Source: Phycisphaerae bacterium
Lineage (GTDB): Bacteria > Planctomycetota > Phycisphaerae > UBA1845 > PWPN01
DNA: 43,688 bases
Direction: 5' to 3'
Assembly (NCBI GenBank): GCA_012729395.1
Contig: JAAYDF010000153.1
Location: forward strand, 1 to 43,688
The position numbers were made by a program, and so were the translations under genes. Positions 36,543 through 43,353 of this stretch are shown in pieces; positions within the stretch are counted from its first letter, which is position 1, and every line of letters begins with the position of its first letter. The notes under the pieces were generated by a model that saw only the letters and a program-made list of their open reading frames with translations, did no database searches and was not told the DNA's origin.

Positions 36543-37775
36543 TCAGGGCGACGATACCTCCTCACTGGTAAGACGCTGAAACCGCCGCGCGATCGCCTCC
36601 GCCAACCCAGTAGCGTATACCACTTCATCCGCCTTCAAGAACAAACCGGGCGGATCCTTGCGCCCCAGAAAGTGACTCACCAACCACACCTGCTCGGACA
36701 GTTCTGCCAGTGCATCGCCGCTGCTCGGCAGCTCATCTCCTTCTTTCGTCTCCAGATCAGCCCGCAACCGCGACAGCCACGCCTCGGCCGCTTCCGGAAC
36801 CTCACTCAATCGCACCATCTCGCCCGGCTCGATACGCCCCCCCACTACAAAGAACGGCATCACCCGCACCCGGCCGGGCCCACGCTGCACCACCAGATAG
36901 TTGAACCTCTCCATCGGCCCGGTCAGTCGAAACGACCGATGCTCCACACCACGCAAACGCTCCAATCGCTGCTTCAATGCCGCCGCCTGCTCAAACGCCT
37001 GCCGCCCCGCCGCCGTACGCATCCGCGAATCAAGATCCGACCAGACCGAGTCCCGCTGCCCCAAGGCAAACGCCACCGCCCGCTCAACCTCCGCCCGGTA
37101 TGCCGACATGGGCATCGAACCATCACACGGTGCCGCACAACGCCCCATGTCGAAATACGCACAACGCTGCCCCGCTGGAGCCTGCTCCAGAATATGCCCG
37201 TACCGGCACAGATCAAAACCGTCTTCCAGAAGCTGCACAAACCGCTGAGCGTCGCCCATCGTCGGGAACGGGCCAAGATCCACGCCCGGCCGCCCGCGCA
37301 GCACCTTGCCCACCGAAAACCGCGGGATGGCCGCCCCGGCGTCGACATGCACGAACCACGACGCCGCGAAGCCCAGTTGTTCCAGGTACGTCCGCGGCAT
37401 GAGCTGCCGTGCGACCCGCCAGAATCGGTAATACAGCTCGAATTGCGAGTGCGCCGGCTGCCACCAGATTTTCCGCACCACCGCCGCCAGATTCGCCCGC
37501 CGCGACACCGCCCCAGCCGACGCGTCACCCTCGGCCGTCGCCGGCCCCGCCAGCCGGGTCCGCAACGCACGCCGCAGATCACCCGCCGCCGACAGCAGCA
37601 CCGTCCGATCCCGCTCATCCGTCAGCAGGTAAACCCCGCCGCCGGAGGGAAGCCGTCGAAGCACATCGCCTTGCCCCGGTGCCGTCTCAACAACAGACTC
37701 TACACAGCCGCCATCCGCCGTCTCGGAAACCGGCGAATACGGAATGACTTGTTCAAACACCTCGTCCGGTCGCAC
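36543..37775 (-). CDS. UvrC-N-like protein with four-Cys cluster and degenerate GIY-YIG segment
   Basis: A 410-residue protein resembling the N-terminal half of excinuclease UvrC. A GIY-YIG-like stretch (SGGGVYLLTDERDRTVLLSA, then GDLRRALRTRL) lacks a clear YIG motif. The UvrC Cys cluster is intact: C190, C205, C213 and C217 in CRYGH and CAYFDMGRCAAPC, the likely iron-sulfur site. A UVR-like helical pair (EQAAALKQRLERLRG) follows. The RNase H-like endonuclease and HhH domains of UvrC are absent. The GTG at 37775 has AGAGG seven bases upstream; another GTG lies seven codons earlier. It could be a Cho-like or regulatory repair protein. A full uvrC is presumably elsewhere. Confidence 0.8.
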   Translation of the reverse strand: MRPDEVFEQVIPYSPVSETADGGCVESVVETAPGQGDVLRRLPSGGGVYLLTDERDRTVLLSAAGDLRRALRTRLAGPATAEGDASAGAVSRRANLAAVVRKIWWQPAHSQFELYYRFWRVARQLMPRTYLEQLGFAASWFVHVDAGAAIPRFSVGKVLRGRPGVDLGPFPTMGDAQRFVQLLEDGFDLCRYGHILEQAPAGQRCAYFDMGRCAAPCDGSMPMSAYRAEVERAVAFALGQRDSVWSDLDSRMRTAAGRQAFEQAAALKQRLERLRGVEHRSFRLTGPMERFNYLVVQRGPGRVRVMPFFVVGGRIEPGEMVRLSEVPEAAEAWLSRLRADLETKEGDELPSSGDALAELSEQVWLVSHFLGRKDPPGLFLKADEVVYATGLAEAIARRFQRLTSEEVSSP

Positions 37776-37846
37776 CGCCGCACCTCTTCCGATCACACGA
37801 ACGGTAGTGTAGGCGAAAACACCGTCACGCGGGAATCGTCTCGCAC

Positions 37847-38405: not shown

Positions 38406-40232
38406 ATGACCGAACACCAGACTCCCGCCCCTGATCCCGCCGTCATGGCCTCCAACCTGGCCGCTCTGCACAACCATCACCCAGCACTCGCGGCGGCCAT
38501 CGAGTCAGCACCCGCCCCGGCCGCCGTTCCCACCCTCACCCGCGACGGCCAACTCAGCTTCCAGCTTGCCCAGCCCGACGGACGCCCAACTTGGCTCGGC
38601 CGGACCTCCATACCCGGCGTCCGGGCTCGGGCCCTCATCGAGCAGCTCGATCTCGGGCCCGGCAATGTCATGCTGCCAGGCATCGGCCAAGGCGCTGAGG
38701 TGGACCTCCTCCTGGCCCGCCTGCCCGGCCATCGAGCCGTCTTCATCTGGGAGCCCGAACCCGCTACCCTCGGACTCATCCTGCGTCTCTATGACTGGAG
38801 CAGACAGATCGCCCACGGTCGCCTCGTCTTCATCGCCTGCCAGCTCGACGAACTGACCGAGACGCTCGTGAACTGGCTGGCGGAGCACCCCGGCCATCTC
38901 TGCCCTGAGCGACTGATGGTATGGCCCTGGTCCACGCCGCCCGAACTGGCGGCCATCCGCTCCGCCGTCCAAAACGCCTACACTGATACCGACTACCGAC
39001 GTACCACGCGATTGGCCGAACTGCGTGCTCGGCTTACCGACAAGCCCCCTGCCTCAGCACCACCGCTCGTCGCCGTCCTCGCTCCCAAACCCACAGAAGA
39101 GGCCCACCTGCTGGCTGCGGGTCTTGCCGACGCCGCGAAGACCCTCGGGTGGCAATCGGTCACCGCCACCGTCACCGGCCCCGGCGACGTCCACCCCCTG
39201 GCCCAAGCCAACAAACTCGCGACGGCCGGGCAGCGACCCACCTTCGCAGTCCTGGCAGACTATGCCCGCCAGGGAGCCCGCTGCCTGCTACCCGACGAAG
39301 TCCCCGCCGTCTCATGGCTTGGCATCAGCGCCGCCCCAACCATGACGCCCACTGGCGAATCCGACATGCTGGCCGTGACGCATACCCGTCAGCAACCGTG
39401 GGCTGCAACGATTGCCGCCAGCACGCCACGTCCTCTCGTCCTCCCGCTGCCGTGCCTGACTCACAGTGCTGGAGACCCAATCCCGCAAGCTGATCGTGAG
39501 GACACGGTCCTGATCCTCGCGGACCTCCACCCCGCGCACGCCTCGACCCTCGGCTTTCGGCTCGCCAGTCATCAGCGATTGTGGGACGCCGCCCTGCGAC
39601 TGCTGGAAGAAGTGGTCGACGGGTTCACGGACGACCAAGCGGTCCGCCTCCTGAGCCGAGCCGAGGCCCAGACCGGCGTCCGACTGGATGACCAGAATAT
39701 CAGGCAGGCCATGCTGTCTGGACTATGCCATCCTGCCGCGACAGGGCTGCTATGGCGGAAAACGGCGCAACACCTTACCGCCAATAAGGTTCCGGTTGAC
39801 ATTCGCGGGACGGGATGGGCCCTGCGGCCGCCGCTATCCCCGCCACAACCGTGCCCTTCGCTGAGCGAGCGAGCGAGCCTGCTGGCGAGAGCTCGGCTTT
39901 TCATCTACGCCGACCCGACTGGCAGGATTTGGCCCGAGGTCCTGCTCGCTGCGGCAGCTGGCGCGGTCGTGGTCGCGCGAGCCCACCCCGGCGACGACGC
40001 ACCAGGCGGCTTGGCAACACTGCTAGCCCCCGGCCGAGAACTCGTCACTTTCCGCGGAATGAACGAGCTGGTGACCGTGGTCCGCCGTTTACTCGCCAAT
40101 CCGGGCCAATGCCAGAAGCTGGTCGGCCACGCGCGGACACGGGTACTGGCGGAGCACCTGCCCCTTCACCGTCTCAAAGCCCTCATCACTGCCTCAAGTT
40201 CTGTTTTTTCCGCTGTGCCCAGGCTGCCGTAA
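38406..40232 (+). CDS. glycosyltransferase-like protein with MAF-like N-terminal region
   Basis: A 608-residue cytoplasmic protein. The N-terminal 180 residues (RARALIEQLDLGPGNVMLPG, then AVFIWEPEPATLGLILRLYD) recall the motility-accessory-factor/DUF115 sugar-transfer group, in which a Rossmann-like fold carries a similar I-x-EP block. The C-terminal third (LFIYADPTGRIWPEVLLAAA, GAVVVAR, LVTFRGMNELVTVVRRLLAN) is like the nucleotide-sugar-binding end of GT-B glycosyltransferases of the CgeB type. Similarity is moderate, so the substrate is open; protein or polysaccharide glycosylation is possible. It is 160 bases upstream of the ParA-CBM48 gene on the same strand, and a functional link is inferred from that. 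Confidence 0.6.
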   Translation: MTEHQTPAPDPAVMASNLAALHNHHPALAAAIESAPAPAAVPTLTRDGQLSFQLAQPDGRPTWLGRTSIPGVRARALIEQLDLGPGNVMLPGIGQGAEVDLLLARLPGHRAVFIWEPEPATLGLILRLYDWSRQIAHGRLVFIACQLDELTETLVNWLAEHPGHLCPERLMVWPWSTPPELAAIRSAVQNAYTDTDYRRTTRLAELRARLTDKPPASAPPLVAVLAPKPTEEAHLLAAGLADAAKTLGWQSVTATVTGPGDVHPLAQANKLATAGQRPTFAVLADYARQGARCLLPDEVPAVSWLGISAAPTMTPTGESDMLAVTHTRQQPWAATIAASTPRPLVLPLPCLTHSAGDPIPQADREDTVLILADLHPAHASTLGFRLASHQRLWDAALRLLEEVVDGFTDDQAVRLLSRAEAQTGVRLDDQNIRQAMLSGLCHPAATGLLWRKTAQHLTANKVPVDIRGTGWALRPPLSPPQPCPSLSERASLLARARLFIYADPTGRIWPEVLLAAAAGAVVVARAHPGDDAPGGLATLLAPGRELVTFRGMNELVTVVRRLLANPGQCQKLVGHARTRVLAEHLPLHRLKALITASSSVFSAVPRLP

Positions 40233-40392: not shown

Positions 40393-41619
40393 ATGAGAAC
40401 CATCGCCATCGCCAATCAAAAGGGCGGGTGCGGCAAGACCACGGTCAGTATTAACCTTGCCGCCTGCCTGGCGCGGGAGGGTCGGCGAACACTACTGGTA
40501 GACATGGACCCCCAGGGACACTGCGCCCTCGGGTTGGCTGTGCCGGAGGATCAGATCGAACTCAGCATCGCTGAGGTACTCCGTTCGGCTTCGCTCAACG
40601 GCCAGGCCGCGCCTGCCGAGCGGGTCGACCTGGTTCGTAGTATCTGGCAGATCACCGCCAATTTTGACCTAACCCCCGCCACCACCTCGCTGGCCGCCTT
40701 CGAGATGGAATTCGGCGGCCGCCCGGATGCCGAGGATTTCCTGGCTGAGGTGCTTTCATCGGTCAACGATAAGTACGATTTCGCACTGATCGATTGCCCC
40801 CCGCACATCGGCCTGCTGACGCTGAATGCGCTCGCGGCGGCCAGTGAGGTCATCATCCCGGTGGATACGGGGTACTTCTCGCTCCAGGGGCTCGCCAAGC
40901 AGATCGAGACGGTCGAGGCCGTCCGATCGCGGCGAGAGCAGGCTCTGGAAGTCCGCGTCCTCGCCAACTTGTACGATGTCCGTACCAAGCTGGGCCGCGA
41001 GATCCTCAACGAACTGAAACGCAAGTTCGGATCGTTGATGTGCTCGACCTTCATCAACTTCAACACCAAGCTTCGCGAGGGGGCCAGCTTCGGGCAGCCG
41101 ATCACTGAGTACGACCCAGGCAGCATGGGATTCCGAGATTTCGTCCGGCTGGCTCGCGAGCTGATCGCGGCAGGCGGTCCTGACATGATCCCGACCGCCC
41201 TGCTTCGCCAGGCGAACAGCCTTGCGGATCGAGCGGATAAGCTGCTGGCAACCACGCGGCCGTTGTTCGGCAAGAACGGCGTCGTCCGCAACGACCAACC
41301 GTCGACGCCCGAGCAAATCCAGCAGAAGATCGAACGCATCTACGGCGCCCAACTCACCAACGAGGGCGTGCTCTTCGTCGCTCAAGCACCGGGAGCTCAG
41401 GCCGTTCACTTGGCCGGCGACTTCAACAACTGGTCCGCCGACGCGACTCCCATGGTCTCAGAGAAACGCGACGCAACCTTCCAGGCATTGCTCCCGCTCG
41501 CGCCGGGCAGGTATCGTTACCGCTACGTGGTCGACGGGCAGTGGCTGAACGACCCGCACAACAGCTACGTCGAGGCTAACCCCTTCGGCGAGTTGAACTC
41601 AGTCGTTGAGGTTTCCTGA
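40393..41619 (+). CDS. ParA/MinD-type ATPase fused to a C-terminal AMPK/CBM48-like glycan-binding domain
   Basis: A 408-residue two-part protein. Residues 1-260 are a ParA-family ATPase: deviant Walker A QKGGCGKTT with signature K10 and catalytic K15, Walker A' DMDPQGH, Walker B DFALIDCPP and switch region IPVDTGYFSLQGL. Residues 324-408 form an AMPK-beta/CBM48-type beta-sandwich. The glycogen-contact residues of AMPK beta1 are matched: W347 (GDFNNW), R377 in place of Lys, W384 (VDGQW) and N402 (GELNSVVEV). A linker joins the two. AGAAGG lies 11 bases upstream. No ParB is nearby. A membrane- or nucleoid-based positioning ATPase carrying a starch/glycogen-binding module is an unusual architecture. 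Confidence 0.92.
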   Translation: MRTIAIANQKGGCGKTTVSINLAACLAREGRRTLLVDMDPQGHCALGLAVPEDQIELSIAEVLRSASLNGQAAPAERVDLVRSIWQITANFDLTPATTSLAAFEMEFGGRPDAEDFLAEVLSSVNDKYDFALIDCPPHIGLLTLNALAAASEVIIPVDTGYFSLQGLAKQIETVEAVRSRREQALEVRVLANLYDVRTKLGREILNELKRKFGSLMCSTFINFNTKLREGASFGQPITEYDPGSMGFRDFVRLARELIAAGGPDMIPTALLRQANSLADRADKLLATTRPLFGKNGVVRNDQPSTPEQIQQKIERIYGAQLTNEGVLFVAQAPGAQAVHLAGDFNNWSADATPMVSEKRDATFQALLPLAPGRYRYRYVVDGQWLNDPHNSYVEANPFGELNSVVEVS

Positions 41620-41935
41620 CAGGACGGGCGGCGACCAGAACTCGCCATCCTGCGACCCGCCGGTCTCGGCGTGCTATCCCAGGATGGCAACCTGCGGAAC
41701 CGCCCAGGCCGGCGAAAGAAGTGCCCCCACCGTGACCCGTCACAATCGTGCCGCGAGCTCGCGCGGCGCGGCTCTCCCTGCTCATTACCTGTACAGAAAA
41801 CGGCTTGCTGTCCTACCATCGGTGTCCGGAGTGCGGTATGCTCTCCCCGGGCATCCAAGGCCTCGCCGCAGCCGTGCCCCGCAGATTGGGTATGGCAGCG
41901 CTGCCTCGCAGCGGCGATGGAGGCTGAGCCGCCGG
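41620..41935. other. intergenic region upstream of the racemase gene, first part
   Basis: Gene-free. It contains a 12-base perfect palindrome, CGCGAGCTCGCG (41752-41763). Possible -10 boxes (for example TATGCT near 41837) lack a good -35 partner. Confidence 0.4.
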
Positions 41936-42040
41936 TCGCCACCGCCTGCCCACCCCGCCACGGCGGGCAGGCTTCGGCGGAGGGGGCGGCCGCTACCAGG
42001 CAGCAGGCATCGGAGCCGCCGGTCGCCACGGCGGGCGACC
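41936..42040 (+). repeat. REP-like hairpin repeats, copies 4 and 5
   Basis: Two members in tandem. The first (about 41936-41990) is an expanded form with an inner hairpin, CTGCCCACCCCGCCACGGCGGGCAG, that mirrors the inner hairpin of copy 1. The second is the compact GGTCGCC-ACGGCG-GGCGACC (42021-42040) followed by GCTAC. They end about 40 bases upstream of the racemase start codon and would be part of its leader. Confidence 0.75.
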
Positions 42041-42078
42041 GCTACTTGTTCCGCGTTTGTCATCCGAGGGACGGGATC

Positions 42079-43353
42079 ATGAAGAAGGTCCATCTGGCCT
42101 ACGGCAAGACAGGGCTCGATGTGAAGGTACCGGCCGACGCGGTCGTTATCCAGCCAAAGTATGTGCCCGGCCTGCCTGACGAGCAGGCTGCGCTCATTGA
42201 CGCTCTACGCAAGCCCATCGCGTCCTTGCCGTTGGGTAAGCTCGTGCAGGCGGGACAACGCGTGGCGGTGGTGCACACGGACATCACCCGGGCAACGCCC
42301 AACGAACGCATTCTGCCGCCCTTGCTGGCCGAGCTGGAGGCCGGAGGCATCCGCCGGGAAGACATCATTCTGCTCAACGCGTTGGGCACCCACCGGCCGC
42401 AAACCGACGCGGAGCTGAAGGCCATGCTCGGCGAGAAGATCGCGGCCAATTACCGCTGCCTGCAACACGACGGCCACAACGATAGCTCACTGGTACACGT
42501 GGGCCGGACGCGGTTTGGGCACGACGTACGCGTCAACCGGCACTTCATGGAAGCGGACGTGCGCATCCTCACCGGGTTCATCGAGCCGCACTTCTTTGCC
42601 GGCTTCAGTGGCGGTCCCAAGGGCGTGCTGCCGAGCATCGCCGGTGCCGAGAGCGTTCTCGACAACCACGGGGCGAAAATGATCGGGCATCCGCAGGCCA
42701 CCTGGGGCATCACCCGCGGCAACCCAATCTGGGAGGAGATGCTCGAAGCTGCGAGCATGACGCGGCCGACCTTCCTGCTCAACGTCACCATGAACCGCGA
42801 CAAGCGGATCACCGGGGTGTTCGCCGGCAGCATGCCCGAGGCCCACGCGGCCGGCTGCGCGTTCGTGAAATCCGCCGCCATGGTTCCGGTCCGCGAACCA
42901 TTCGACGTGGTGATCACCAGCAACTCCGGCTACCCGCTGGATTTGAACCTGTACCAATCGGTCAAGGGCATGTCCGCCGCGGCTCAGGTGGTGCGTCAAG
43001 GTGGGAGTATCATCATCGCTTCGCAGTGCTGGGATGGCGTACCGGAGTTCGGCGAATTTGGGCGGCTGCTGCGATCGGCGACCGGACCGGCCGAGATCCT
43101 CGCCCGCATCGAGTCCCCGGGCTTCGGATGCATGGATCAATGGCAGGTCCAGACGCAGGCTCGCATCCAGCAGAAAGCAACGATCTACGTCCACGCCGAC
43201 GGTCTGACCGAGGAGCAGATCCGCGAATGCACGCTGGAGCCTTGTCCGCGAATCGAGGAGACGCTCAACAACCTACTGGCCCGCGGCGAAGGCCGGCGAC
43301 AAACCGTTTGCGTCCTACCCGAGGGCCCACTGACCATTCCCTACGTGGAATAA
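42079..43353 (+). CDS. larA: LarA-type nickel-pincer racemase (DUF2088)
   Basis: A 424-residue enzyme of the nickel-dependent lactate racemase family, which uses the pyridinium-thioacid pincer nucleotide cofactor. The key residues of Lactiplantibacillus LarA are matched with a constant offset of three: D68 and R71 (HTDITRATP), H105 (LGTHRP), H171 and K181 (EPHFFAGFSGGPKG; K181 holds the cofactor) and H197 (DNHGAK). The ATG at 42079 has GAGGG eight bases upstream. The natural substrate may be lactate or another 2-hydroxyacid, since LarA homologues vary. No larB, larC or larE for cofactor synthesis is in the window. Confidence 0.9.
   Translation: MKKVHLAYGKTGLDVKVPADAVVIQPKYVPGLPDEQAALIDALRKPIASLPLGKLVQAGQRVAVVHTDITRATPNERILPPLLAELEAGGIRREDIILLNALGTHRPQTDAELKAMLGEKIAANYRCLQHDGHNDSSLVHVGRTRFGHDVRVNRHFMEADVRILTGFIEPHFFAGFSGGPKGVLPSIAGAESVLDNHGAKMIGHPQATWGITRGNPIWEEMLEAASMTRPTFLLNVTMNRDKRITGVFAGSMPEAHAAGCAFVKSAAMVPVREPFDVVITSNSGYPLDLNLYQSVKGMSAAAQVVRQGGSIIIASQCWDGVPEFGEFGRLLRSATGPAEILARIESPGFGCMDQWQVQTQARIQQKATIYVHADGLTEEQIRECTLEPCPRIEETLNNLLARGEGRRQTVCVLPEGPLTIPYVE

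Follow-up and report, generated by a model that had tools for sequence, protein, structure and literature searches.

A ParA-type ATPase fused to an AMPK-type carbohydrate-binding module, and the partner gene beside it, in the Phycisphaerae

Introduction

The cargo that ParA/MinD ATPases are known to position, on the nucleoid or the membrane, includes DNA, carboxysomes and other protein-based bodies. A 2025 review of the positioning of bacterial organelles does not mention glycogen (PMC13052382). In a contig from a Phycisphaerae bacterium (the window, meaning the whole stretch of 43,688 nucleotides analysed here), a single gene joins such an ATPase to a possible glucan-binding arm. Its product begins as a ParA/MinD-type ATPase and ends in a carbohydrate-binding module (CBM) of the type found in AMPK beta.

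Such a protein raises two questions. The first is whether the union of the two domains is genuine and whether both halves keep the residues on which their activities depend. The second is what an ATP-driven switch would do with a module for alpha-glucan. An earlier, sequence-only reading of the window had suggested that the protein may position glycogen or another alpha-glucan body, with the carbohydrate as cargo in place of ParB-parS. Here we examine the domains of the fusion protein, its distribution, its neighbours and the glycogen genes of the genomes that carry it.

Results

The two halves of the fusion protein

The fusion gene occupies positions 40393-41619 of the forward strand, starts with ATG and encodes 408 amino acids without interruption; the strand opposite holds no open frame. 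Residues 1-260 (40393..41172) make up the ATPase domain, identified by an AAA_31 match and an AF2 model. The linker that follows (residues 261-305; 41173..41307) is predicted to form a helix at 268-287 and then a low-confidence stretch at 288-300, and its length varies among homologues. It meets the CBM in a K-I-x-x-I-Y-G-V element (residues 306-322; 41308..41358), modelled as a helix at 306-316 followed by a strand; in the alignment G318 is kept in 56 of 57 sequences and Y317 in 48 of 57. The AMPK-type CBM48 domain, identified by a PF16561 match, fills residues 324-408 (41362..41616) and contains the glucan-contact positions W347, R377, W384, F398 and N402.

The ATPase half has the motifs and fold of the ParA/MinD family. 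AAA_31 matches residues 1-187 (E 4.9e-49), and the KGGxGK(T/S) motif with its signature lysine, the catalytic Asp and the SIMIBI fold are all present. The deviant Walker A motif reads NQKGGCGKTT (K10, K15) and is accompanied by D39 and D134; C13 sits where the P-loop usually has Val. A PDB sequence search with the fusion protein found ParA/Soj 8ray (E 9.3e-46). The model of this half has pLDDT mostly above 90, and in a structure search with the whole fusion model, where the ATPase half accounted for every match listed, the best was Soj/ParA 9a6n (Z 38.1, rmsd 1.5 over 250 residues). The nearest fold relatives are chromosome-segregation ParA/Soj proteins (Z 35-38); McdA (Z 30) and BcsQ (Z 27) are also matched, and FleN/FlhG score lower (Z 25-28). 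All 40 aligned orthologues, which come from within and outside the Planctomycetota, keep K10, C13, K15, D39 and D134.

Does the ATPase still bind DNA? The DNA-contact residues of Caulobacter ParA have been mapped to R195, R221, R224, K233 and K241 (PMC7229837). The equivalents of R195 and R224 are retained in the fusion protein as R197 and K226; those of R221, K233 and K241 are replaced by F223, Q235 and a small residue at 243. Judged from these substitutions, DNA binding may be altered, yet it cannot be called lost.

The C-terminal half is matched by AMPK1_CBM (PF16561) over residues 334-408, with E 7.5e-14 and 52.1 bits against a curated cut-off of 26.8, and by the Pfam family CBM_48 (E 1.6e-10). 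The PDB search that found ParA also returned the CBMs of AMPK beta-2 and beta-1 (E 9e-11 to 2e-10), and alignment to AMPK beta-2 4y0g gave E 4.5e-12. AF2 predicts a confident all-beta domain (mean pLDDT 89.9). Together, the sequence profiles and this prediction point to a CBM fold.

Aligned with AMPK beta1, for which we take the numbering to be that of the rat protein, W347 pairs with W100, R377 with K126, W384 with W133, F398 with L146 and N402 with N150. In the fusion proteins K126 of AMPK has become Arg, and L146 Phe or Tyr. Trp100 and Trp133 have a role in glucan binding, and in PTST, a CBM48 targeting protein of Arabidopsis, changing the equivalent Trp pair to Ala in a double mutant abolishes binding to starch (PMC4339375). 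Among the 40 orthologues, W347, W384 and a basic residue (Arg or Lys) at 377 are present in every one and N402 in 38; G399 is invariant. Because the contact residues are so strongly conserved, binding of alpha-glucan by this module is plausible, and on the strength of this conservation we consider it probable.

The protein thus has a ParA fold with intact catalytic motifs and an AMPK-type CBM with a conserved Trp pair. The sequence-only reading had described just this, a ParA/MinD ATPase with a C-terminal AMPK/CBM48 module that keeps its glucan-contact residues. Pfam profiles and PDB matches confirm the architecture, and the placements of K10, K15, W347, W384, R377 and N402 were all correct. 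Residues 324-408, where that reading looked for the fold and its sugar-facing Trp pair, match the profile of the fold and keep the pair.

Distribution of the fusion

Ten of the 13 genomes of the window's family carry the fusion, its own included, as do 85 of 150 genomes sampled from the class Phycisphaerae (10 more were ambiguous). In a phylum-wide draw, no match outside the class, among those listed, extends into the CBM. Full-length relatives outside the phylum lie on contigs labelled Desulfobacteraceae, Deltaproteobacteria, Desulfobacterales, Rokubacteria and Omnitrophota (L155, L157, L164, L156 and L160), and overall identity across phyla is about 40 percent. Given full orthologues in the family and across the class, the fusion is neither a chance joining nor an assembly artefact; it is old and conserved. 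Two apparent records from Kuenenia (L133) and Actinomycetes (L148) were left out of the count as probable mis-binned Phycisphaerae. At one locus (L082) the ATPase is not followed by a CBM, which may reflect secondary loss.

Could the fusion simply be a further ParA of the ordinary kind, at work in DNA partition, with the CBM incidental? Its nearest solved relatives are Soj and ParA, and the DNA-contact residues are partly retained. However, the window's genome already has a separate canonical ParA without a CBM (37 percent identity), and relatives have one as well. The fusions also group together in a single clade, separate from the four canonical ParAs in the tree (support 0.82) and typified by a GGCGK P-loop, and ten proteins encoded by the partner gene described below gave no match to any HTH or ParB-domain family in Pfam. 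We regard this explanation as extremely unlikely.

A partner gene directly downstream

A scan of the neighbours of relatives revealed an unannotated gene directly 3' of the fusion in most lineages. In the class sample 53 such partner genes score above the FlhG background, and 52 of them follow the fusion immediately and in its own orientation; the remaining one is in a fragmented genome, close to the start of its contig. The gap is mostly under 250 bp, and some of the genes overlap. Among about 80 named loci, examined as a second set, no gene other than the partner is widely conserved next to the fusion. This linkage gives a context to Phycisphaerae genes otherwise without a function.

The partner consists of an N-terminal peptide, a Pro-rich linker, an FlhG/MinD-like domain without a P-loop and a C-terminal domain. 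The peptide has the overall pattern GRG[LI]xxI[AS]xxFLS: LGRGLxDISxxFLS in non-planctomycetes and GRGIxxIAHLFLS in Sedimentisphaerales-type sequences. Other partners begin LSEISHLFLSS or LDxLADLFLT, and many Phycisphaerae versions (those with LDxLADLFLT) are without the Arg. Judged by eye, the peptide resembles the ParA-activating motif of ParB. In ParB it is the N-terminal peptide that contacts the ParA dimer and raises its ATPase activity (PMC12462528). The middle domain matches CbiA (E 1.8e-5, in the Omnitrophota locus L160), and the partner model matches the FlhG fold with Z 11.8 (range about 11-12); the GKT/GKS P-loop is absent in 25 of 25 partners. The C-terminal domain (about residues 314-427) is well predicted, and in the ten partner proteins scanned no Pfam family covers the protein.

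The partners of non-planctomycetes are short, at 184-209 amino acids (L155 8447-9007, L164 4970-5521 and L156 10160-10786). They share a GRG[LF]xD[IV]SxxFLS-type start and differ in their C-terminal parts, with a Cys-containing domain in the Desulfobacterota pair and another domain in Rokubacteria.

The window is without a recognisable copy of this gene. Between the fusion and larA, where relatives have the partner, 459 bp (41620..42078, forward strand) contain no partner ORF by sequence or ORF scan. Profile searches of the whole genome for the partner returned only an FlhG gene (contig C211) and one chance match, although a highly divergent partner may have escaped them. The partner went undetected in about 37 of the 85 carriers, the window's genome among them. 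One genome of its family (G004) retains it, at L045:4860-6086, and so do two of a related family (G013 and G020). By this comparison, the window's lineage appears to have lost the partner and kept the A component without a recognisable B. Since the partner occurs in most lineages, and in part of this family, the system either began as an A-B pair or long existed as one, and the linked B was lost in several lineages. The remark in the sequence-only reading that ParB is missing therefore holds at the window's own locus but fails for the wider family, most lineages of which encode an adjacent partner with a ParB-like peptide. For the same reason, its suggestion that carbohydrate stands in for ParB finds no support.

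The fold of the partner brings a different role into view. The fusion might be a glucan sensor rather than a mover, its CBM reporting alpha-glucan and gating an ATPase that controls the partner or a regulator, with no granule positioned at all. The CBM of AMPK beta has been proposed as a glucan reporter, and the fusion's CBM is of this type. FleN, a regulatory MinD-type ATPase solved with its regulator FleQ, is among the structure matches of the partner's degenerate FlhG/FleN-like domain, and the linked genes do not include one for a structural granule protein. Against this, the closest relatives of the ATPase half are ParA/Soj (Z 35-38) and not FleN/FlhG (Z 25-28). We consider a pure sensor rather improbable.

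Is the glucan glycogen?

The window's genome encodes a GT3 glycogen synthase and a full-length glycogen phosphorylase (GlgP), and for this organism glycogen is possible. It is a poor candidate for a general cargo: carriage of the fusion is not associated with a GT3 or GlgA synthase. Of the 85 carriers 41 encode GT3, against 32 of the 55 non-carriers (Fisher p = 0.30); GlgA occurs in three of the carriers and two non-carriers. GlgM (TIGR02149), an alternative synthase, is absent from all 150 class genomes, and 41 of the 85 carriers have none of the three. An alpha-glucan phosphorylase-like gene is nearly universal in the genomes sampled, so some alpha-glucan metabolism is general. GT3 is commoner in carriers with the partner (32 of 48) than in those without (9 of 37; Fisher p 1.7e-4), but carriage follows family lines, and we do not count this association in favour of glycogen. 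About 80 neighbourhoods of the fusion contain no recurrent gene for glycogen. That the cargo is specifically glycogen granules seems to us doubtful at best. The GT3 of two genomes of family f8 (L175 and L176, in G039 and G036) outscores that of other families, which suggests a different origin.

If half of the carriers are without a recognised glycogen synthase, has the CBM-like domain perhaps lost its sugar and become a protein-interaction module, leaving the partner to select the cargo? The changes of K126 to Arg and L146 to Phe or Tyr would fit. A pure protein scaffold, however, would need neither the Trp pair nor the basic residue nor N402, all of which persist between phyla although overall identity is down to about 40 percent, and Arg and Phe are still usable in a sugar site. 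This reading is unlikely, and a module that still binds alpha-glucan is the one we carry forward. Elsewhere in the window's genome are further AMPK-CBM-like stretches, on contigs C233, C312, C315 and C109 (L003, L004, L005 and L007); three are short ORFs of 97-131 amino acids, apparently stand-alone CBM proteins.

The sequence-only reading had also pointed to a glycosyltransferase next door. The gene is there: a Glyco_trans_1_2 protein of 608 amino acids (38406..40232, forward strand; Pfam E 1e-11), ending 160 bp upstream of the fusion. As evidence for glycogen it does not serve, being lineage-specific (kept in 7 of 9 family loci and not beyond the family) and no member of a glycogen-synthase family. 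It probably lies outside the system, and beyond such family-level neighbours no conserved cluster surrounds the fusion of the window.

These neighbours bear on one more explanation, a BcsQ-like role in the export of surface polysaccharide or exopolysaccharide, in which the CBM would contact the nascent glycan. The ATPase half has BcsQ-family profile matches beside its fold match (Z 27), and glycan genes adjoin the fusion in some families: Glyco_trans_1_2 here, and in seven loci of the named set a divergent HldE gene. Yet the neighbours differ by family, HldE is on the opposite strand, and no polysaccharide synthase or export gene recurs across about 80 neighbourhoods. An export role is very unlikely.

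Other neighbours can be listed briefly. A bifunctional HldE-like gene lies upstream, on the opposite strand, in other families of the order (L046, L049, L053, L054, L055, L057, L089, L091 and L093). In the window, positions 36543-37796 of the reverse strand encode 417 amino acids resembling the N-terminal nuclease half of UvrC/Cho, with the remainder of UvrC absent. Downstream of the fusion is a LarA-family gene (nickel-dependent lactate racemase; 42079-43353, forward strand; NF033504 above cut-off), whose true start probably lies downstream of the 41671 given in the ORF list.

Discussion

What, then, does the fusion protein do? That it is a ParA-type switch we hold with high confidence; that its job is spatial placement is a serious possibility that stops short of probable. 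Our preferred account, put forward tentatively, makes the fusion the A component in a switch of the ParA/MinD type that consists of two genes, tethers a glucan body under the control of ATP and has the ancestral partner as its activator. ATP-driven dimerisation would pair two CBMs and give the dimer a firmer grip on a surface of alpha-1,4-glucan than the ADP-bound monomer has. The dimer may hold the nucleoid as well: R197 and K226 are kept, and F223, Q235 and position 243 are changed. In most lineages the partner's ParB-like peptide would stimulate hydrolysis and so reset the system; two other parts of the partner, the degenerate FlhG-like domain and the C-terminal domain, would provide the link to whatever is positioned or regulated. 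In this way an alpha-glucan-bearing body or a glucan-bound enzyme would be tethered under the control of ATP, and thereby placed or partitioned.

The wider form of this proposal is a widespread two-gene positioning system in which alpha-glucan is the cargo or the gradient surface of a ParA-type ATPase and a P-loop-less, FlhG-like activator drives it. We advance it with considerable doubt. If true, it would extend the positioning principle to polysaccharide, by way of a built-in glucan module and a dedicated partner, and would offer a specific and testable way to study how bacterial cells position their carbohydrate stores or pass them on.

The fold families involved are known. The combination of ParA with a CBM and the partner itself are undescribed in the open-access literature searched, where we found nothing relevant on ParA with CBM48, AMPK or glycogen. 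Among known systems, ParABS (Soj/Spo0J) shares the A fold and motifs, at 35-42 percent identity to Soj/ParA structures, and also the B gene directly downstream, which in relatives of the fusion encodes an N-terminal peptide of the activating type. Unlike ParA, the fusion adds an AMPK-type CBM and has C13 in its P-loop, and the equivalents of the DNA-contact residues Arg221 and Lys233 are Phe and Gln. Its partner is no canonical ParB, having a P-loop-less FlhG-like domain in place of a ParB or HTH domain. The McdAB system that positions carboxysomes likewise has a ParA-type ATPase of the same fold. Its small dedicated adaptor gene may have a counterpart in the partner, which adjoins the fusion in 52 of 53 detected cases but is missing beside the window gene and in about 37 of 85 carriers. 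McdA is without a CBM, and no relationship is established between McdB and the partner.

FlhG and FleN share the fold of the partner's middle domain, whereas the partner is without the P-loop and adds a peptide at its N-terminus, a linker and a C-terminal domain. BcsQ offers a MinD/ParA ATPase tied to a polysaccharide system, that of cellulose; it differs in having no CBM and in sitting in bcs operons, of which there is none at the fusion locus. AMPK beta and PTST share the CBM48 profile and the positions of Trp100, Trp133 and Asn150. The bacterial CBM differs from theirs in being joined to a ParA ATPase and in having Arg for Lys126 and Phe or Tyr for Leu146. A CBM48 protein that brings a partner to a glucan granule is already known in PTST (PMC4339375).
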